Positions 2,276 to 14,501 of a stretch of 55,718 nucleotides of DNA are shown one piece after another. Made by a program: the position numbers and the translations under genes. Within the stretch, counting starts at the first letter, position 1. Every line of letters starts with the position of its first letter. The DNA is from Deltaproteobacteria bacterium (GTDB lineage: Bacteria > Myxococcota_A > UBA796 > GCA-2862545): NCBI GenBank assembly GCA_007693595.1, contig REDI01000009.1, positions 1-55,718 on the forward strand, written 5' to 3'. The notes below the pieces were generated by a model. The model worked only from the letters and a program-made list of their open reading frames with translations, had not been told where the DNA came from and made no database searches.

Positions 2276-3331
2276 TTGCAGATCGCCGCTGTCGGCACCG
2301 CTCTTCCCCCCCACCGCTACAGCCAGCGTGAGCTCGTCGATGCGCTGACCCGACTGTGGATGCGCAGCCACCACAACCCTCGGCGCGTCGAGCAGCTCCA
2401 CCAGGCGGTGCAGGTCCAAGGGCGCCACCTCGCGCTGCCCCTCGAGGGCTACGAGGCGCTGCGTGGCTTCGGCGACAGCAACGCGGCCTGGCTCCGGGTC
2501 GGCCTCGACGTCGGGGAGCAGGCGGTCCGAAGCGCCCTGGCGCAGGCGGGGCTGGAGCCCGCTGAGGTCGACGCGATCTTCTTCACCACCGTCACCGGGG
2601 TCGCCGCCCCCAGCCTCGACGCCCGCCTGGTCAACCGACTCGGCTTCCGCCCCGACATCAAACGCACGCCCATGTTCGGCCTGGGTTGCGTCGCCGGCAC
2701 GGCAGGGATCGCCCGCATGGCCGACTACCTGCGCGCCTTCCCCGACCAGGTGGCGGTGCTGCTCTCGGTCGAGCTGTGCTCCCTCACGCTGCAGCGAGGC
2801 GATCTCTCGATCCCTAACCTGATCGCGACCGGCCTCTTCGGCGACGGGGCGGCTGCGGTGGTGGGGATCGGCAACGCCCGATCCATCGAAGGGCTAGGCC
2901 CCCACGTCCTCGCCAGCAAGAGTCGCTTCTACCCCGATACCGAGCAGGTGATGGGCTGGGACATCGACGACGGCGGCTTTCGCATCGTGCTCGCCGCGAC
3001 GGTGCCCGACATGGTGGAGCGCTACCTCGGCGACGATGTCAGCGCCTTCCTCACGAGCCAAGGGCTCGACCGCGAAGCCATCACCTCATGGGTCTGCCAC
3101 CCCGGAGGTCCCAAGGTCCTCCGGGCCTTCGAGCGGGCGCTCCGGCTCACCGAAGACGATCTCGCCATCACCTGGCGGTCCCTGTCCGAGGTCGGCAACC
3201 TGTCCAGCAGCTCCGTGCTCTTCGTGCTGCGCGACACCCTCGCGCAGCGCCGGCCGGCCGCCGGCTCCCTCGGGATGATGCTCGCGATGGGTCCTGGCTT
3301 CTGCGCCGAGCTCGCCCTCCTCGAGTGGTAG
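2276..3331 (+). CDS. Type III polyketide synthase (chalcone/stilbene synthase family)
   Basis: The 351-residue protein should condense an acyl starter with malonyl-CoA units to give pyrone, resorcinol or phloroglucinol-type products. The full catalytic triad of the family is visible: Cys138 in GLGCVAGTAG, His275 in CHPGGPK and Asn308 in GNLSSSSVLF. The FGDGAAAVV thiolase-fold motif is also present. Length is normal. Translation starts at TTG 2276 with GAGAGG five bases upstream. The genes that follow encode an acyl carrier protein and a fatty acyl-AMP ligase, which suggests a long-chain fatty acyl starter delivered on the carrier protein (inference). The exact product cannot be read from sequence. 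Confidence 0.93.
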   Translation: MQIAAVGTALPPHRYSQRELVDALTRLWMRSHHNPRRVEQLHQAVQVQGRHLALPLEGYEALRGFGDSNAAWLRVGLDVGEQAVRSALAQAGLEPAEVDAIFFTTVTGVAAPSLDARLVNRLGFRPDIKRTPMFGLGCVAGTAGIARMADYLRAFPDQVAVLLSVELCSLTLQRGDLSIPNLIATGLFGDGAAAVVGIGNARSIEGLGPHVLASKSRFYPDTEQVMGWDIDDGGFRIVLAATVPDMVERYLGDDVSAFLTSQGLDREAITSWVCHPGGPKVLRAFERALRLTEDDLAITWRSLSEVGNLSSSSVLFVLRDTLAQRRPAAGSLGMMLAMGPGFCAELALLEW

Positions 3332-3643
3332 GCCTTCCCCGCGCTGACGGCGCCCACGCAGACTAGGTCCAGAGCTCCGACTCGCACGATGGGTCCGACC
3401 ACGGCGCGTCAGGGGGAGGTCCTTCGCGTGGGCTCGCCCGACCAGGGCCGGGCATGGTGAGGCCTCCAGCGTCCGTCGTAGACGACCTCGACGAAGCACC
3501 GAGCGTGTAGGCGAGCTCGCGATGGCTCTCCTTGTGGAGGGTGACGCGCTGCGCTACTCCTCTGCAACCCGAGCCCCGTCTCTTTGGGGCTGAGCCCCTG
3601 CTCTACCGCGCGCGCCTCGCCAGAACACCTAGCTGGAGTCCCG
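3332..3643. other. 312-base intergenic region with alternative hairpins
   Basis: This gap separates the type III PKS from the acyl carrier protein gene. No convincing gene is present on either strand. Near its end a GGGGCT segment (3586-3591) can pair with AGCCCC on its left (3572-3577). It can alternatively pair with AGCCCC immediately to its right (3593-3598), although that hairpin has a very short loop. No T tract follows, so an intrinsic terminator is not supported. Confidence 0.45.
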
Positions 3644-3895
3644 ATGAAGGCCCGAGCGATCAAGGACCGCATCCTACAGCTCGCTCGTGACGAGCTCGGG
3701 ATCGCCCCCGACGACCTCGAGGCCCTCGCGAGCCAGGACCTCGCCCACCAGCTCGACAGCGTGCAGCGGCTCACCCTGGTCGTCGCCATCGAGGATACGT
3801 TCGAGGTCTGCCTGGACCCCGACGATGAGCGAGTGCTCGCCACCCTCGACGACGTGGTCGCCCTGATCGTCGCCAAGGCCGCGGAGCCTGCGTGA
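3644..3895 (+). CDS. Acyl carrier protein
   Basis: This is an 83-residue acidic carrier protein. Ser39 in the LDSVQRL motif is the expected 4'-phosphopantetheine site (DSV instead of the commoner DSL). It is followed by the helix-II recognition segment VVAIEDTF. The start is ATG 3644 with CTGGAG five bases upstream; a longer reading from 3584 adds residues unlike carrier proteins. Its stop overlaps the GTG of the downstream fatty acyl-AMP ligase by three bases, so the two are translationally coupled. The likely role is to receive an acyl chain from that ligase and pass it to the type III PKS upstream (inference). Confidence 0.93.
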   Translation: MKARAIKDRILQLARDELGIAPDDLEALASQDLAHQLDSVQRLTLVVAIEDTFEVCLDPDDERVLATLDDVVALIVAKAAEPA

Positions 3896-5655
3896 GCACC
3901 GCTCAACTCGAGCGCCCCCCGCTGCGCCGATCGGAGGGTCCCACGACCCTGGGCGCTTGGCTCCACCACGCCGCGGACCACGCTCCGCCAGGCCATGGCC
4001 TCCGCTTTCTCGATCGACGTGAGCGTCCCACCCTCCTGGACTGGGCCGAGGTGCACCGTCGCGCGCGCGCCGCCGCCGGTACGCTGCAACGCAAGGGGGT
4101 TCAGGCCGGCGATCGGGTCGCGATCATCCTCCCGACCGCCCCCTCCTTCACCGATGCCTTCTTCGGCTGCCAGCTCCTCGGAGCCGTCCCCGTCGCCCTC
4201 TACCCTCCCGTGCGCCTGGGGCGGCTAGAGGCCTACCACGCCCAGACGGCTGGGATGCTTCGGTGCGCCAAGGCCAGGCTGCTGATCACCGAGCCGCGCA
4301 TCCACCGCTTGCTCGGGCAGACCCTCGCCCGCTTCTCCCCCTCGCTCGGTACGCTGGACGCCACCACGCTATCCCAGGGTCCGACAGCTTCAATCACCAC
4401 TTCCCATCCGCATGACCTGGCGATGATCCAGTTCAGTTCGGGGACGACTCGGGATCCCAAGCCCGTGGGGCTCACCCACGCCCAGGTGCTCGCCCAGACC
4501 TTCGCCTTGATCGATGAGGTCCTGTCCACCGGACCCGCCTCGAGCCGGGCGGGCGTGAGCTGGCTGCCGCTCTATCACGACATGGGTCTCATCGGCTGCA
4601 TCTTCCCAGCGCTGTGTCTGGGTGCCTCCCTGACTCTGCTCCCCCCCGAGCTCTTCCTCGCCCGACCCGCTGCCTGGCTTCGAGCGATCAGCGACTATCA
4701 AGGAACGGTCTCGCCGGCCCCAGACTTCGCGTATCGCCTCTGCGTTCAACGCATCTCCGAGGCGGAGCTCGACGGCCTCGATCTCTCCTCGTGGAGCCTC
4801 GCCCTGAACGGCGCCGAGCCGGTTCGGCCCTCGACGCTACGCGCCTTCTCCGAACGCTTCGGCCGGTGTGGCCTGCGCGCGACGGCCCTCACCCCGGTCT
4901 ACGGTCTCTCCGAGGCCGCGCTGGCGGTCACCTTCTCCGAAGCCGCGGCGCCCCCCCGCATCCTGACCTGCGATCCCGACGCCCTGGCCGAGGGTCGCGT
5001 GGTGCCTGGCCCCGAGGGCGTCGAGATCGTCTCGGTCGGCCGACCCGTGCCTGGGTTCAGCCTCGAGGTGCGGGATCCCCACGGCGAGGTATTGCCCCCA
5101 CGCCGAGTGGGGAAGCTGTGGGCCAGGGGGCCGTCCATCATGGAGGGCTACCTCGACCGCGACGATCAGCCCCTCGAAGACGGCTGGCTCGACACCGGCG
5201 ATCTGGGGTTCGTACATGATGGGGAGCTCTACATCGCAGGACGCGCCAAGGACGTGCTCATCCTGCGGGGCCGAAACCACGCCCCCCACCTCGTCGAGAA
5301 CGCCGTCGACGAGGTCGAGGGCGTTCGGCAGGGCTGTGCCGTCGCGGTCTCGGACGTCCTCGAAGACGGCGAGGTCCTGCTGGTCTTCGTCGAGGTCCGC
5401 GCCCCCCACCCAGATCAGGCCCAGGCCTGCGCCGAGGCGATCCGAGCGGCGACCGGACTGCGGCCGGACGCGATCCTGCTGCTGGAGCCGGGAACGCTCC
5501 CTCGCACCTCGAGTGGAAAGCTACGCCGCGCCGAGACCCTACGGCGCTATCGCCGCGATGAGCTGGCGCCCCCCCAGGCGATCACCCCTTGGGGTCTGGC
5601 CAAGGCCTTCGCCAGGAGCGGGCTGGGCCGGCTCGGGTGGATCGTGGAGGGCTGA
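3892..5655 (+). CDS. Fatty acyl-AMP ligase (FAAL-type adenylate-forming enzyme)
   Basis: The 587-residue enzyme activates a carboxylic acid as its adenylate. Residues 181-186 (FSSGTT) form the phosphate-binding A3 motif. YGLSEA, TGDLGF and RAKDVLILRGRN follow in order, with the catalytic Lys near the end in TSSGKLRR. The GRNHAPHLVE stretch resembles the GRNHYPQDIE motif of FAALs, which load carrier proteins rather than CoA. The start is GTG 3892, overlapping the stop of the acyl carrier protein gene; that neighbour is the obvious acceptor. FAAL versus FACL assignment depends on an insertion that I judge only by motif likeness. Confidence 0.9.
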   Translation: MSTAQLERPPLRRSEGPTTLGAWLHHAADHAPPGHGLRFLDRRERPTLLDWAEVHRRARAAAGTLQRKGVQAGDRVAIILPTAPSFTDAFFGCQLLGAVPVALYPPVRLGRLEAYHAQTAGMLRCAKARLLITEPRIHRLLGQTLARFSPSLGTLDATTLSQGPTASITTSHPHDLAMIQFSSGTTRDPKPVGLTHAQVLAQTFALIDEVLSTGPASSRAGVSWLPLYHDMGLIGCIFPALCLGASLTLLPPELFLARPAAWLRAISDYQGTVSPAPDFAYRLCVQRISEAELDGLDLSSWSLALNGAEPVRPSTLRAFSERFGRCGLRATALTPVYGLSEAALAVTFSEAAAPPRILTCDPDALAEGRVVPGPEGVEIVSVGRPVPGFSLEVRDPHGEVLPPRRVGKLWARGPSIMEGYLDRDDQPLEDGWLDTGDLGFVHDGELYIAGRAKDVLILRGRNHAPHLVENAVDEVEGVRQGCAVAVSDVLEDGEVLLVFVEVRAPHPDQAQACAEAIRAATGLRPDAILLLEPGTLPRTSSGKLRRAETLRRYRRDELAPPQAITPWGLAKAFARSGLGRLGWIVEG

Positions 5656-5719
5656 GGGCGTATGTCCTCGGCGTGGGGTAGAGGTGTCATACCGGCTTTC
5701 CCCTTCGATCGGAGCGCTC

Positions 5720-7390
5720 ATGCCGCGACCCCTGCTCGTGATCCACACCGCCGGAAGCCAGGTTCAGATGGGCCGACAGCACGCCGAGATTCTACGGGAG
5801 TACGGCGGCTACCGGGCGGCGACCGACTATTACCCCCGACTGGCCTGGCGCATGCTGGCAGCGGGCACCCACACCCGAGCGGAGCGGGCGGCGATCAAGG
5901 CCCTACGACCGGCCTTCGACGCGGCGGTACACCGGCTCTTCCGCGACCGTCCCCAGGACCTTCAGGACCGCTCGACCGCCTTCTATCAGGCCTTGACCGG
6001 GGATCCGAACCTCGCGCGCTACGTCTCGGTGATGGACGTCTTCCAGAACGCCGTGGGTCTGCTGGGCCGGATGGGGCTTATCCCCCACCTCGCCAAGATG
6101 GCGCGCGCGCCGGGCTGCTCTACGCTGATGGCCTGGCACGACGGCACCCGCGACGGGCGGCTGCTGCACGCCCGGAACTTTGACTTTCCCGGTGTCGGCG
6201 TGTGGGATGAGGCCCCGGCCGTGGTCTTCTGTCGCCCGCGCGAAGGGCTTCGGTACGGCTTTCTGACGATGCGCGGCGCGGATGTGCCCGGAGTCTCGGC
6301 CTTCAACGAGGCGGGGATCTGCGTCACGGCCCATACGCGGCTCCACCGCGCCGTCTCGACCAAGGGGGCCTCGATCGTCGACATCGGCCACGAGGTCGCG
6401 CGGAGGGCCTCGACCTTGGAACAGGCCATCGCGATCGCGGGGGAGCGCCCCTGCGCCTCGACCTGGGGCCTGGCGATCTCGTCGGCGCGCGAGCACACCG
6501 CGGCGGTGGTCGAGCTGACCGCGCACGGGGCTCGCGCGATCCCCGCCAAGGCCGGTGAGCCCTATCACTGCACCGCGAACCTCTACGCCCACCCCGACCA
6601 CCAAGCCGGCGAGATCGCCCCGAACGCCGCGTGGGTCCACGACTGCGCTGGCCGGGCAAAGAGCTTGCGCCGCCACGGCGCCCGCCGTGGGCACGACGTG
6701 GCCTCGATGTGGTCGATGCTGGGGGACCATGCCGACCCGGACCACCCCGAGCACCTGCGGGCGGGTGGCGCCTGCCTCGCGGCCCCCTACACCGTGCAGA
6801 GCCTCGTCGCCGACCTCTCGATGGGCCAGCTTCATACGAGCGTCGGCTCCTCCCCGACCGGGCACGGGGCCTACGCCACCCTCGACCTCGACTTCGGCGC
6901 GCCCGTCGGCGGGCGGACTCTCGAGGCGAGCACCCCGCCCACGAACCCCTCCCGCTACGCCTCTTCCGAGGCCCACTGCGCCTATGTCGAGGCCGTTCGA
7001 CTCGAGCAGCGGGCCGCCCCTCGCCCCGAGCTGCGCGCCGCCCTCGAGCGCGCGGCCTCCCTCGACCCCGATGAGTCGAGCTACCTCTTCCTCGCTGGCG
7101 TCGCTCGCCTCTCCGACGGAGAGGTGCAGGGCGCCCGCGAGGCCCTGAGCGCCGCGCTCGAACACGAGCCCAACCGCTTTCGCAGGGGGCAGATCCACCT
7201 CTGGGCCGCCCGAGCTAACGACCTGGCAGGCGCGCGCGCCGAAGCCGTCCACCACCGCGCCCGACTCCTGGACCTCGATCATCCGCACCTCGGACCGCTC
7301 AAGCGACGAGCCCGTCAAGAGCGTCCCTTGTCCCTTCGCCACGCCGCTCGGATCGCCATCCACCCGGCCCTGGTCGAGGCGACCCTCTAA
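5720..7390 (+). CDS. C45-type Ntn hydrolase/acyltransferase with C-terminal helical repeats
   Basis: This 556-residue protein belongs to the autoproteolytic C45 family related to isopenicillin N acyltransferase. Such enzymes cleave themselves before a Cys, which becomes the nucleophile and hydrolyses or transfers acyl-amide bonds. The signature is GCSTLMAWHDGTRDG followed by HARNFDF, giving Cys133 as the predicted N-terminal nucleophile. An extra segment of about 140 residues at the C-terminus looks like helical TPR-type repeats (EALSAALEHEPNRF). The start is ATG 5720 with GGAG upstream; the frame is open far upstream but overlaps the ligase gene. In this locus it could acylate or deacylate the fatty product (inference). 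Confidence 0.85.
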   Translation: MPRPLLVIHTAGSQVQMGRQHAEILREYGGYRAATDYYPRLAWRMLAAGTHTRAERAAIKALRPAFDAAVHRLFRDRPQDLQDRSTAFYQALTGDPNLARYVSVMDVFQNAVGLLGRMGLIPHLAKMARAPGCSTLMAWHDGTRDGRLLHARNFDFPGVGVWDEAPAVVFCRPREGLRYGFLTMRGADVPGVSAFNEAGICVTAHTRLHRAVSTKGASIVDIGHEVARRASTLEQAIAIAGERPCASTWGLAISSAREHTAAVVELTAHGARAIPAKAGEPYHCTANLYAHPDHQAGEIAPNAAWVHDCAGRAKSLRRHGARRGHDVASMWSMLGDHADPDHPEHLRAGGACLAAPYTVQSLVADLSMGQLHTSVGSSPTGHGAYATLDLDFGAPVGGRTLEASTPPTNPSRYASSEAHCAYVEAVRLEQRAAPRPELRAALERAASLDPDESSYLFLAGVARLSDGEVQGAREALSAALEHEPNRFRRGQIHLWAARANDLAGARAEAVHHRARLLDLDHPHLGPLKRRARQERPLSLRHAARIAIHPALVEATL

Positions 7391-7471
7391 GCCCGCCCCC
7401 GTGTGGGTTGCGAGCCTTGTCCATCTTCTCGCCCGACGGTCATCCCCCCGAATCAACCGAGAGTGCGCCCC

Positions 7472-7693
7472 ATGGACCTCCTCCGTGCCCTTTTCATCCT
7501 CCACGACGCCGTCGCGGTGCTCGACCTGACTGCCCGAGGCCTGAGCAGGGGGCGCGGTCGCATCCCACAGACGATCCTGGCGATCGTCAACCTGGGGAGC
7601 GTCCCCATCCGTACCGCCTTCGCCCTCTGGATCTGCTGGAAGCACGAACAAACCCAAGCCCAATTCAAAGGTCCTGCCCATGCCCTCCATTGA
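7472..7693 (+). CDS. Small membrane protein, unknown function
   Basis: The 73-residue protein has no family I recognise. It contains hydrophobic stretches at about 2-18 (LLRALFILHDAVAVLDL) and 34-53 (TILAIVNLGSVPIRTAFALW), with an Arg-rich loop between. I start it at ATG 7472, which has GAGAG about eight bases upstream. Its last 14 bases overlap the start of the alpha/beta hydrolase gene in another frame, so the two are probably co-translated. It lies inside the candidate PKS locus and may be a partner of the hydrolase (inference). Confidence 0.6.
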   Translation: MDLLRALFILHDAVAVLDLTARGLSRGRGRIPQTILAIVNLGSVPIRTAFALWICWKHEQTQAQFKGPAHALH

Positions 7694-8903
7694 ACGCCGT
7701 CAGATCCTCTGGATCCTCGCGGGGGTGACCGCGCTCGGGCTGCCCGTGGCCCTGCTGTGCTTCGGGTCCCTGCCCGCCCTCTTCCCGACCTCCCTGCGCG
7801 CGCTCGACGCCGACTGGGAGCCCTACGCCGATCGCAGCCAGCGTCGCCTCCCGGACACAGCCTGCGGGCTGACCGAGCTCCGAGCGACCCACGGGGCGCC
7901 CTGTGAGCCTGCCCGACCGAGCGTCGTCGAACGGGCCGAGGTCACCTTTCCGACTCCTCCCACCTTCCCACCGAGCGAGCTCAAGGGCACGCTCCACCTA
8001 CCCCAGGGTCTCCCCGGCCCCCGCCCCGCCGTCGTGCTGCTCCACGGGAGCGGCCCCCAAGACCGCCACGGCCGCGCACCGGGCGAGCTGGTCCGCGCCT
8101 ACGACCAGCCCCTCGCGGTCCTCGACGCGCTCGCAGCGGATCTGGCTCGCAGGGGCCTCGTGGTGCTTCAATACGACAAGCGAAGCTGCGTGACGTGCTA
8201 TCCTCAGCTTCGCAAGGTCAACTTCAGCCAGTTCTCCTTCGAATACTTCCTCGAGGACGCCCACGCCGCCGTAGACTACCTCGCGGGCCGACCCGAGGTC
8301 GATGGCCGGGCGATCGTGGTGGTCGGGCATAGCCAGGGCGCGACGTTCGGCCTCCACGTCGCCGAAGCCGACGATCGAGTCCTCGCCGCCGCCATGCTCG
8401 CCGGCTTCAGCGGTACCTTTCGCGACACGGTCATCGGGCAGCTCGAGGGCCTCGCCGCGCAGCGCATGCGTCAAGGCGACCTTATCCAAGGCGCCGCCAT
8501 CAAGGCGCAGGCCGCGACCATGGCGCTGTGTATGGATCGCATCAACACCGTGCACGATCCCGATGACCGCTGCATGGGTGGGGGCGTCACCCTGGCCGCC
8601 CTCTACGAGTACGAAGTGCTCAATCGACGAACGCTACACCTTGTCGGCTCGCTCGACAAGCCCCTGTTCTTCCTCTCGGGCACCCTGGATCTCAACGTGC
8701 CGCCGGCCGAGCTGGCGCGCTTTCGGCAGGCCGCCCAAGGCCGCGACGCCGAGTTTCACCTGATTTCGGGGATCGGTCATGGCTTGACGGACCTGCACCA
8801 CCCCCCGTCGCCTCCAGAGATCGACCCCCGTGTTCTCGACGCGCTGGGGGCCTTTTTGGGCAGCGTGTCGGCGCCTGAGCCACCCGAGCTTCCGGTCGAG
8901 TGA
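7680..8903 (+). CDS. Membrane-anchored alpha/beta hydrolase
   Basis: The 407-residue protein has an N-terminal hydrophobic anchor (about 9-30) and then an alpha/beta-hydrolase domain. The oxyanion segment is LLHGSGPQ near residue 122. The nucleophile elbow is GHSQG with Ser218. The acid is probably Asp in GTLDLNV, and the His lies in GIGHGL. A catalytic triad is therefore complete. The start overlaps the preceding small membrane protein gene. It closes the + strand run that starts with the type III PKS, so an ester or amide on the product or its precursor is a possible substrate (inference). Confidence 0.88.
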   Translation: MPSIERRQILWILAGVTALGLPVALLCFGSLPALFPTSLRALDADWEPYADRSQRRLPDTACGLTELRATHGAPCEPARPSVVERAEVTFPTPPTFPPSELKGTLHLPQGLPGPRPAVVLLHGSGPQDRHGRAPGELVRAYDQPLAVLDALAADLARRGLVVLQYDKRSCVTCYPQLRKVNFSQFSFEYFLEDAHAAVDYLAGRPEVDGRAIVVVGHSQGATFGLHVAEADDRVLAAAMLAGFSGTFRDTVIGQLEGLAAQRMRQGDLIQGAAIKAQAATMALCMDRINTVHDPDDRCMGGGVTLAALYEYEVLNRRTLHLVGSLDKPLFFLSGTLDLNVPPAELARFRQAAQGRDAEFHLISGIGHGLTDLHHPPSPPEIDPRVLDALGAFLGSVSAPEPPELPVE

Positions 8904-9011: not shown

Positions 9012-10331
9012 ATGCTGCTTCCCTTGCTGCTCCTCGGCTTGAGCGCCACCGCGCACGCGGGGTGGACCGAGCTCGACGACGACGGGGACTGCCACATCCG
9101 GCTTCCCGACAACCATCGTTTCGAGAAGGTCCACCGCCCCTTCCGGCGCGGCGAGCCCCCCGATCAGGCCGAGGCCTCCGCACGTCAGGTCGCCCTGGCC
9201 CGCATGGTGGAGCGGGTCTGCACCGACCGCACCGCCGAGGAGTGCGCCGGCCTGCGGAGCGCGATCGGCATCGACGCGGTGGTGAACCTGCGCGCCCGTC
9301 AGGTCTGCGCCGTGGCGCTGGTTCGGACCGACCTGACCCCCGCTCGGCCCGAGACTTCACCCAAACCCACGGAAGTCCCCGCGCCGCTGCCTCGACCCGC
9401 CTCGACGGTGAAGACGCCTCCCCCCTCCACAGGGCCCCCCTCAGGACTCACCGCGAGCGTGTCGGAGCAGGCGGCACGATCCCGCCCCAACGAACAGATG
9501 AGCCAGCTCCATGACCGGCTCTCTGAGGCTCCGGGTGACCGCTGCGCCCTGCGAAGCGGCTACCCCACCCGCCCCATCGCTCCCGGCGCGACGCGGGTCG
9601 GCTGCACGCCGGGCGTCACCGACGACTGCTCCTTGGAGCAGCGCTCCGGCAGCCGCGAGCTCGAGATCACCACCCCCCTGCTCGTGGGTGAGATCGAGGT
9701 CACCCGCGGCCTGTGGGCACGCATCATGCGCCAGACGCCTCCGGGAACCGATCGCTGCGGCGAGACCTGCCCCGTCTCCAACGTCACCTGGGTCGAGGCT
9801 GTTCGCTTCGCCAACGCGCTGTCGGAGCACGATGACCTGCGTCCCTGCTACCGGATCCGCAAAGGCACCGTGCGGTGGCGAGGCGGCGCCACCTGCGAGG
9901 GCTACCGTCTTCCCACCCCGGGCGAGTGGGAACATGCGGCCCGAGCGGGGGTCGACACGCGCTTCGCCGGCAGCCAGGAGGTCGGTCAGGTGGCGTGGTG
10001 GGTGGGCAATAGTCACGATCAGCCCCACCCCGTCGCCCTGCTCGAACCCAACGCCTTCGGCCTGTACGACATGAGCGGCAACGTGCAGGAGTGGGTCTGG
10101 GGCAACCGCCGCTTCATGACGACCCGCGATGCCGAGGGGGTTCGTCCGCGCCGGGTCCGCATCAACGACGGACCCACCGGCGAGTCTTTCGTCGAGGATC
10201 ACGAGATCCGCGGCGGAAGCTTCAGAAGCCCCAGACCGCACGTCAACCACATTCACTACGCCCAGCCCACGACCCGAATGCGGGCCAACGGCCTACGGCT
10301 GGTGCGATACGGGGAGCGTTGCGAGGAGTGA
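9012..10331 (+). CDS. Exported FGE-sulfatase-fold protein
   Basis: The 439-residue protein starts with a signal peptide (residues 1-16, ending AHA). An N-terminal domain with paired Cys residues comes next, then a Pro/Ser/Thr linker, and an FGE-sulfatase (SUMF1-like) domain from about residue 190. Family landmarks are EIEVTRGLWARIM, VSNVTWVEAVRFAN, YRLPTPGEWEHAAR, FGLYDMSGNVQEWVWG and IRGGSF. The Cys pair used by true formylglycine-generating enzymes is not present at the C-terminal end. A structural or binding role is therefore likelier than sulfatase activation. CGGAG precedes the ATG at 9012. Confidence 0.88.
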   Translation: MLLPLLLLGLSATAHAGWTELDDDGDCHIRLPDNHRFEKVHRPFRRGEPPDQAEASARQVALARMVERVCTDRTAEECAGLRSAIGIDAVVNLRARQVCAVALVRTDLTPARPETSPKPTEVPAPLPRPASTVKTPPPSTGPPSGLTASVSEQAARSRPNEQMSQLHDRLSEAPGDRCALRSGYPTRPIAPGATRVGCTPGVTDDCSLEQRSGSRELEITTPLLVGEIEVTRGLWARIMRQTPPGTDRCGETCPVSNVTWVEAVRFANALSEHDDLRPCYRIRKGTVRWRGGATCEGYRLPTPGEWEHAARAGVDTRFAGSQEVGQVAWWVGNSHDQPHPVALLEPNAFGLYDMSGNVQEWVWGNRRFMTTRDAEGVRPRRVRINDGPTGESFVEDHEIRGGSFRSPRPHVNHIHYAQPTTRMRANGLRLVRYGERCEE

Positions 10332-11922: not shown

Positions 11923-13233
11923 TCAGGTCCTCCGGAGCCGCTCGCGCAGCGCCTCGGCAGACCAGAGGCTCTGGTCGTGGGCGCGCACCGCGAGCACCTG
12001 GGCCGGGTCCCTCCCCCCCAGCAGGGTAGGCGCCGACGCTGCGGGAGCCTCCTCGAGCACGATCTCGAACCGCCCCCCGTCGAAGGGCTCCCCTGGTGCG
12101 CGCTCAACCCGGACGACCCGCTCTTGCTTGCCGTGGGCCTCGAGGGCCAAGGCGCGGGAGATGCAGTACGGATTGTTGCCCGGCCGACCCAGCAGCATGG
12201 TGGTCATCCACGAGCACCCGCCCAGACAACGGGCAGCGTGAGGGCAGGTTCGACACAAGCCCCAGAGGTCTTCGACCGTGCGCTCCCGGAGGCTTCGTAG
12301 CTCCGGGGCGTTCTCGACCACATCGGCCAGGCGATCGCGCCCGAGCACCCCGCCGGTGAAGCTGCGGGTCGGCAGCGAGGGGCAGCCCTTGATCTTCCCG
12401 TCCGCCTCGAGGCCGAGGGTGTAGCGACCCGCAGAGCAGGCTGACCACGAGGCGCCCTGCTCGCCTCCATAACGAAGCTCCTCTTCGAAGGGACTGAAGT
12501 AGCCGATGTTGTTGCCTAAGAAGAGCGCGATACCGGCGGGCTGGAGCCGCTCTCGCTTGATCCAGACCAACAGCGGAAAGAGCTCCAACAGGTCGTAGGG
12601 CTGGAGTAGAAGCTCGGGGCGATCCGCCGCGCGGCCCATCGGCACGGTGAGCTGGATCTGCCAGCCCGCCCCTCCGACCTCGACGAGCGCGTCCGCGATG
12701 CCGGGTAGCTCCGGCAGCGAGAGCCGGTTGATCTGGGAGTTGAAGCCGAGCTGGATCGGGGTGGCGGCGACCCGCTCGGCCGCATCCATCGCCGCTCGCC
12801 AGGAGCCCTGGACCCCCCGCAGGGCGTCGTGGGTCTGCTCCAGGCCGTCGATCGAGATCGAGATCGCCCCGATCCCTGCCTCGACGGCCCGACGCACCCG
12901 ATCCGCGTCGAGGTTGCGCGCGCCGGTCGTGATCGAGCAGCTCATGCCCCGCCGGGTGATCTCGGCGGCGATCACATCCCAGTCCTCTCGCAGGTAGGCC
13001 TCGCCCCCGATGAGCGTGACCTCGCGTACGCCGATCTCGTGCAGCTCACGGACCACGTCCAGGCAGCTCGCCGTCGAGAGCTCCTGGGGCCGCGCGCGGC
13101 CCGCCCGAGATCCACAGTGCCGGCAACCGAGGTCACAGGCGAGGGTGAGCTCCCAGACACAGTAGATCGGGTGGGGCCGCTCGACGTCGGAGGGGCGCGG
13201 GATGCGAGAGAGATCGGGATCGGGCGGTGCCAT
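11923..13233 (-). CDS. Radical SAM/SPASM enzyme
   Basis: The 436-residue protein has the radical SAM cluster motif CDLGCRHC (Cys33, Cys37, Cys40) and the SAM-binding GGEA segment at 76-79. Its C-terminal SPASM-type Cys set includes GCPSLPT, LCRTCPHAARC and LGGC, and should hold auxiliary FeS clusters. Relatives modify ribosomal peptides or dehydrogenate sulfatase Ser/Cys. No short precursor peptide with a plausible leader was found within a few hundred bases, so the substrate is open. The start at 13233 lies 89 bases from a divergent flavoprotein gene, and the shared gap holds two near-identical 13-base sites. Confidence 0.9.
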   Translation of the reverse strand: MAPPDPDLSRIPRPSDVERPHPIYCVWELTLACDLGCRHCGSRAGRARPQELSTASCLDVVRELHEIGVREVTLIGGEAYLREDWDVIAAEITRRGMSCSITTGARNLDADRVRRAVEAGIGAISISIDGLEQTHDALRGVQGSWRAAMDAAERVAATPIQLGFNSQINRLSLPELPGIADALVEVGGAGWQIQLTVPMGRAADRPELLLQPYDLLELFPLLVWIKRERLQPAGIALFLGNNIGYFSPFEEELRYGGEQGASWSACSAGRYTLGLEADGKIKGCPSLPTRSFTGGVLGRDRLADVVENAPELRSLRERTVEDLWGLCRTCPHAARCLGGCSWMTTMLLGRPGNNPYCISRALALEAHGKQERVVRVERAPGEPFDGGRFEIVLEEAPAASAPTLLGGRDPAQVLAVRAHDQSLWSAEALRERLRRT

Positions 13234-13322: not shown

Positions 13323-14501
13323 ATGCTCGATGCGCTGATCATCGGGGGCGGGCCTCACGGCACCCACCTCGCCATCGCCCTCCTCGCCAGACACGGCCTC
13401 CGGCGCGGCCACTTGGCGGTGCTCGACCCTCACGACGCGCCGCTGGGTCAGTGGTGGCACTGCGCCGAGAACACTGGCATGACCCACCTGCGGTCGCCGG
13501 TGGTCCACCACCTCGGCCTCGGCCCCTGGGCGCTGCGCGAGCACGCCCGAGCGCATGGCTTCGACGACAAGGCGCACTTTCTCGCCCCCTACGACCGCCC
13601 GAGCGTCGAACTCTTCCGTCATCACTGCGCCTGGCTCGAGGACCATCATCGACTCGCCCAGGTCCGTATCCAGGGGCTCGCCCAGCGCATCCAGCTCGAC
13701 GAGGACTGCGTTCGCGTCGAGACCACCAGCGGCCAGCTCTGCGCCCGCGAGGTCGTACTCGCCCTCGGCGCCTCGGCCTCGCTCTACCGTCCACCCTGGG
13801 CGGGCGAGCTGCTCCGCGGAGGCGCCACCATCCACCACCTCTTCGAGCCCGGCTTTCAAGCCTCTCAAGTCTCCGCAACGGAGCGGGTCGCGGTGGTCGG
13901 AGGGGGTATAAGCGCCGCTCAAGTCGCCCTGAAGCTCGCCGTGAGGGGCTGCGTCGTGCACTTGGTCCGTCGCCATGGGCCGAGGGTGCATACCTTCGAC
14001 AGCGACCCCGGCTGGGTCGGGCCCAAGCACATGCGGGGCTTCCTGGCCGATCCCGATCCCGACCTCCGCCGCCGGAAGATCACCGCCGCCAGGCACCGCG
14101 GCTCCATGCCCGAAGAGCTCGCCGAGGCCTTGGACCACGCCGCGAGGGCCGGAGCGATCCACCTCGTCGAGGGTGAGGTGACGCGCGCTCACCTCCTGAA
14201 TGGCTTGGGATCGCCTCCCCCGATCGGGCTCCAGGTGGGCCAGGACTTCCTGGCGGTGGATCGGGTCCTGCTCGCGACGGGTTTCCTGAGGGACCGGCCA
14301 GGGGGAGCGCTCGTGGATCGCCTCGTCGAGGAGTACGAGCTCCCCTGCGCCACGTGTGGCTACCCGATCCTGAGCCCAAACCTACGATGGCACGCGAGGC
14401 TGCTCGCAACTGGGGCCCTGGCGGAGCTGCAGCTCGGTCCTGTCGCGCGGAACCTCGTGGGGGCTCGACGGGCGGCGGAGCGGTCCGCTACCGGCTGGTA
14501 G
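13323..14501 (+). CDS. FAD/NAD(P)-binding monooxygenase-like protein
   Basis: The 392-residue protein has an N-terminal FAD Rossmann motif, IIGGGPHGTHLA (residues 6-17). A second dinucleotide motif, VVGGGISAAQVAL, lies near 191-203, and an ATGF segment near the C-terminal third. This layout matches flavin-dependent monooxygenases of the ornithine/lysine N-hydroxylase or Baeyer-Villiger type, and FAD/NAD(P)-binding proteins of unknown substrate. It is transcribed away from the radical SAM gene with a shared 89-base spacer, so the two may be co-regulated. Substrate is not predictable. Confidence 0.83.
   Translation: MLDALIIGGGPHGTHLAIALLARHGLRRGHLAVLDPHDAPLGQWWHCAENTGMTHLRSPVVHHLGLGPWALREHARAHGFDDKAHFLAPYDRPSVELFRHHCAWLEDHHRLAQVRIQGLAQRIQLDEDCVRVETTSGQLCAREVVLALGASASLYRPPWAGELLRGGATIHHLFEPGFQASQVSATERVAVVGGGISAAQVALKLAVRGCVVHLVRRHGPRVHTFDSDPGWVGPKHMRGFLADPDPDLRRRKITAARHRGSMPEELAEALDHAARAGAIHLVEGEVTRAHLLNGLGSPPPIGLQVGQDFLAVDRVLLATGFLRDRPGGALVDRLVEEYELPCATCGYPILSPNLRWHARLLATGALAELQLGPVARNLVGARRAAERSATGW

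Follow-up and report, generated by a model that had tools for sequence, protein, structure and literature searches.

The window, by which we mean the whole analysed stretch of 55,718 nucleotides, belongs to a draft genome of 4.92 Mb (97 contigs, 98% complete; G000) and carries a run of genes on the plus strand that starts with a type III polyketide synthase (PKS). The six open reading frames named in a first-pass annotation were re-checked and all of them are present. The PKS gene (2276-3331, plus strand) has a TTG start and encodes an FtpA/PKS11-like protein of 351 amino acids. It matches the Pfam families Chal_sti_synt_N and Chal_sti_synt_C (1.5e-16 and 6e-19), and its closest solved structure is PKS11 of Mycobacterium tuberculosis (PDB 4jao, 389 bits over 349 residues). 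The triad Cys138/His275/Asn308 is invariant in an alignment of 20 sequences, and the protein thus combines the chalcone-synthase fold with the Cys-His-Asn triad that define a type III PKS. NCBIfam suggested an identity as DpgA, which we rejected because the score of 194.9 bits lies below the cut-off of 425. A MYXO-CTERM motif (16.2 bits, cut-off 15.85) closes the open reading frame that precedes the PKS gene, and we take the source to be an uncultured, myxobacterium-like organism. Downstream of the PKS, nearly all relatives have a gene for an ICMT methyltransferase of about 175 amino acids. In the window this place is taken by a spacer of 312 bp (3332-3643) that holds no corresponding open reading frame, and no ICMT remnant was detectable there in a search with filters off. 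The spacer is followed by the gene for an acyl carrier protein (ACP; 3644-3895, plus strand) of 83 amino acids with a PP-binding match of 24.3 bits (cut-off 20.8). Its phosphopantetheine serine, Ser39, sits in an LDSV motif and the ACPs of relatives match with LDS. The ATG at 3644 is the better start, since the start in the list of open reading frames (3584) lies 60 nt too far upstream.

The third gene of the run (3892-5655, plus strand) encodes a ligase of 587 amino acids; it starts with GTG and shares 4 nt with the end of the ACP gene. Among the NCBIfam models, the fatty acyl-AMP ligase PRK09192 scores 430 bits and the FACL-type PRK06187 182 bits; the protein also matches PRK07768, which is labelled as acyl-CoA ligase, with 393 bits. 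Comparison with the PDB gives the E. coli fatty acyl-AMP ligase (FAAL) as best match with 316 bits, while the best CoA ligase reaches 97 bits. Its YGLSE and VGRPVP motifs lie 40 residues apart, as they do in the relatives; this was compared with the usual spacing in CoA ligases. The ligase therefore resembles fatty acyl-AMP ligases more closely than acyl-CoA ligases and has a FAAL-type insertion, the latter judged by motif spacing alone. The triad, the carrier protein with its phosphopantetheine serine and the coupled ligase had all been read from the DNA by the first-pass annotation, and they stand with the ACP start moved to 3644. A scan of the locus for promoters and terminators gave no useful signal.

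Three more genes follow on the same strand, which we judge to be neighbours and not members of the cluster. The first encodes a C45/AAT-type Ntn-hydrolase with a TPR tail (5720-7390), for which the ATG at 5720 is the better start and gives a protein of 556 amino acids. The protein scores above the cut-off of the NCBIfam model C45_proenzyme (87.6 versus 85 bits) and has the internal nucleophile of this class in Cys133, a residue invariant in four homologues. A structural model of moderate confidence (pLDDT 66.5) matches isopenicillin N acyltransferase in a fold search (E 1e-5) and has a C-terminal TPR domain. The other two are a small membrane protein for which no family was found (7472-7693, plus strand) and a membrane-anchored alpha/beta hydrolase (7680-8903, plus strand). 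Directly after the hydrolase gene, the frame at 9012-10331 encodes a C-terminal formylglycine-generating-enzyme/sulfatase-modifying factor domain, and on the minus strand at 11923-13233 lies a radical SAM/SPASM protein that comes near the nif11-class maturase family, with 444 bits against a cut-off of 725.

Gene order was compared in a sample of 63 genomes of the same order, about half of which have a close PKS (56-70% identity). In most of the loci obtained, ACP and FAAL come after the PKS on one strand, and most also carry two further genes, one for an ICMT-family methyltransferase (about 175 amino acids) that separates PKS from ACP and one for a FAD oxidoreductase behind the FAAL. The conserved unit in the order is PKS-ICMT-ACP-FAAL-FAD monooxygenase, and the same arrangement recurs in Myxococcus, Corallococcus, Archangium, Pyxidicoccus and Acidobacteriota. 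Named genomes, when scanned, yielded 80 loci, and partners were counted in the 62 that extend 4 kb or more downstream. ICMT, FAAL and FAD oxidoreductase were found in 19, 20 and 19 of the 22 Myxococcota loci, in 5, 5 and 6 of the 8 Acidobacteriota loci and in 24, 0 and 24 of the 24 Actinomycetota loci; partners were called by homology scores against proteins of the window or of genome G059, so that the counts could be too low for divergent proteins. The Actinomycetota version without FAAL is the polyketide quinone pathway (PMC9927152). In the window PKS, ACP and FAAL are adjacent in the conserved order, the space between PKS and ACP lacks the ICMT gene, and the C45 gene stands where the FAD monooxygenase is expected after the FAAL. 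The first-pass annotation missed methyltransferase and monooxygenase because both are absent at this locus. PKS, ACP and FAAL without these two genes are also found in Hyalangium (L150) and in another Myxococcaceae genome (L170). Given families, residues and gene order, the region 2276-5655 is very probably an ftp-type starter module. There is good support for the earlier proposal that ACP and FAAL here supply a type III PKS with fatty acyl-ACP starters and that the product is a long-chain lipid of the resorcinol or pyrone kind.

It is a peculiarity of the source genome that both usual finishing genes are missing at the locus and that distant versions exist elsewhere. It contains just one homologue of the ICMT (39%, G000:C89:237992-238492) and a single good homologue of the FAD monooxygenase (39%, G000:C84:195952-197058). 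In trees, both fall in clades of same-family genomes that bear a different type III PKS, PKS2, and not with the clustered ftp versions; the oxidoreductase clade also takes in one gene from the same order beyond the family. The source ICMT adjoins another, very large megasynthase (AT-KS-ACP-KR-DH-PPTase; G000:C89:239383-243135 and G000:C95:1-6251), which is apparently split by a contig break. This megasynthase is widespread in the family, with open frames of up to about 3,500 amino acids in relatives. Because of its position the ICMT could serve the megasynthase, an idea weakened by genome G018, which has the megasynthase and neither ICMT nor type III PKS. Within the window, a FAD/NAD(P)-binding oxidoreductase (13323-14501) was considered as substitute monooxygenase and rejected for its scattered distribution. 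It is present in 11 of the 63 order genomes, with homologues of 43-50% in 9 and a further one of 38%, and only in G062:C51 does it lie near a PKS, about 2 kb from a divergent one.

The same-family genomes that share the source-type ICMT and oxidoreductase carry PKS2 (34-44% identity) directly downstream of a type I fatty acid synthase (FAS)-like megasynthase (KS-AT-ACP-KR-DH), and the two genes overlap in several genomes. The pairing follows the logic seen in Azotobacter, where ArsA feeds ArsB. Within family f1 the ftp-type PKS (PKS1) is present in nine genomes and PKS2 in eight, one of which (G013) was counted from a fragment only, and no genome has both (p 4e-5). ICMT was found in 17/17 genomes with a type III PKS versus 1/4 without (p 0.003), and the FAD oxidoreductase in 16/17 versus 0/4 (p 0.0008); these Fisher tests ignore shared ancestry, as do those on PKS1 and PKS2, and the genomes are metagenome-assembled and 77-99% complete. 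FAAL orthologues (51-59%) occur within the family only in genomes carrying the ftp-type PKS. The helicase-DHH-LOG block (n18-n10-n9-n7) that flanks FAS-PKS2 in relatives is intact in the source genome (G000:C22, L197, 264000-283500), where FAS and PKS2 are absent from the syntenic site, and the next gene beyond the block is a homologue of the gene upstream of FAS in G021. In genome G024, too, the block lacks PKS2, and the genes are similarly mixed: ftp-type PKS, ICMT, ACP and FAAL are accompanied by a type-2 oxidoreductase on a different contig. Since the PKS2-bearing relatives keep the same ICMT and oxidoreductase homologues and the syntenic FAS-PKS2 site is empty, it is moderately likely that a synthase supplied by FAAL and ACP took the place of a FAS-fed synthase, whose finishing enzymes now work in trans. 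If this replacement holds, the mutual exclusion of PKS1 and PKS2 would point to a common set of finishing enzymes that the two synthases supply. The more extended proposal, in which the replacement left one phenolic-lipid pathway distributed over three loci and two exchangeable routes to its fatty acyl starter, is tentative, and we put it slightly below an even chance. Should the replacement be real, nature would have exchanged the way in which starters reach a phenolic lipid or quinone pathway. A third type III PKS clade (L109:5264-7041 and equivalents) is present in most genomes of the order outside the source family; the L109 member passes the NCBIfam cut-off for DpgA (552.7 versus 425 bits) and has a DpgB-like enoyl-CoA hydratase after it. 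This DpgAB-like locus is absent from the source genome.

The module might instead release an untailored product, an alkylpyrone, resorcinol or resorcylic acid, while the distant ICMT and monooxygenase have other jobs. The empty ICMT place and the missing monooxygenase gene are in line with this idea, L150 and L170 make it possible because they carry the three genes without the other two, and conservation of a type III PKS cluster for alkylpyrones has been reported for Myxococcota (PMC12766979). It is at odds with the trees, in which the source ICMT and monooxygenase fall among the enzymes of PKS2-bearing family members, and with the way in which the presence of both enzymes tracks that of a type III PKS; we regard it as possible and distinctly the less probable outcome. 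For most type III PKSs the usual starter is an acyl-CoA. The ligase could accordingly be an acyl-CoA synthetase that supplies an acyl-CoA-dependent PKS, with the ACP incidental, as the 24 FAAL-free Actinomycetota loci with the same PKS family might suggest. This is very unlikely in view of the far higher scores against FAAL models and structures than against the listed CoA ligases, the 40-residue motif spacing common to relatives and the strict linkage of ligase and ACP. The first-pass proposal of a single new six-gene pathway, with the C45 enzyme adding an acyl group in amide linkage or taking it off, can draw on the common strand, intergenic distances of 64 and 81 bp, the overlap of the last two genes and the intact C45 fold and nucleophile, but it is least probable of all and co-conservation fails, as C45, membrane protein and hydrolase were found near the PKS in none of 33 same-order loci, C45 and hydrolase in none of the 62 named loci, and the C45 homologues (37-42%) of G014, G023 and G050 lie on contigs without PKS, G014 lacking this PKS altogether.

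An ftp-type module with tailoring in trans is, as a whole, the likely explanation. The parts are assigned by homology; for ACP loading and chain transfer we reason from the characterised ftp system of M. xanthus. The FAAL would adenylate a long-chain fatty acid and load it onto the phosphopantetheine of the ACP, and the acyl-ACP would prime Cys138 of the PKS, which would add malonyl, possibly methylmalonyl, units and cyclise the chain. Cyclisation would most likely be an aldol closure, so that a long-chain alkylresorcinol or resorcylic acid is the most likely product, with an alkylpyrone as possible side or main product. In Azotobacter ArsB a Trp favours resorcinol formation; its counterpart in MMAR_2474 is W230, and PKS11 and FtpA are named in the same paper as sharing it (PMC5916927, PMC6274091). 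Trp228 of the window PKS aligns with this residue of PKS11. PKS11 has the Trp, yet is deposited as alpha-pyrone synthase, and Trp228 thus leaves both rings possible. The product is probably methylated and oxidised to a quinone. That the ICMT on C89 and the FAD monooxygenase on C84 carry out these steps in trans, giving a methoxylated alkylquinone, has about an even chance; both enzymes would be leftovers of the other type III PKS system, the one fed by a type I FAS. Another FAAL-primed polyketide locus, as judged from its genes, is present in the source genome (L201, G000:C31:44000-58000), with a second FAAL (38% to that of the window), a small ACP-like frame and a ketosynthase protein of 2,122 amino acids.

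Among known systems, M. tuberculosis PKS11 (PDB 4jao) shares with the window PKS the triad and the Trp (Trp230); we know of no ACP or FAAL associated with it. The cylindrocyclophane pathway (cylA/cylB/cylI; PMC11837247, PMC8086630) likewise unites FAAL, free ACP and type III PKS, but has type I PKS elongation and a halogenase between ACP and type III PKS. Azotobacter arsABCD (PMC6274091) also primes a type III PKS with acyl-ACP, there from a type I FAS, a logic shared by the same-family PKS2 loci, whereas the window has a free-standing ACP and FAAL and no type I FAS. The pkqABC/srsABC clusters of Mycobacterium and Streptomyces, which make methylated alkylquinones (PMC9927152), have a homologous PKS (57-59% to Streptomyces loci), but lack ACP and FAAL and keep methyltransferase and oxidoreductase inside the operon. 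The closest relative is ftp of M. xanthus, for which, in the citing passages, a FAAL and alkylresorcylic acid (Hayashi et al., 2011, doi 10.1002/cbic.201100344, as cited in PMC8460268), in vitro data with C18:0 (as cited in PMC11837247) and oxidation of FtpA products to alkylquinones (as cited in PMC10896814) are described. A stilbene synthase, methyltransferase, AMP-dependent synthetase and monooxygenase in the same order have also been reported as a gene set (PMC5006271). As in the window, the M. xanthus type III PKS is fed by ACP and FAAL with the same gene order, and identities to the Myxococcus loci L145 and L164 are 58% for PKS and 54-55% for FAAL; the window differs in lacking the methyltransferase and monooxygenase genes and in having the 312-bp spacer instead. 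Thus, a gene set first taken for undescribed has at its core, judged by homology and order, the alkylresorcylic acid module of M. xanthus and is not new, and the ftp system extends to a largely uncultured myxobacterial order.
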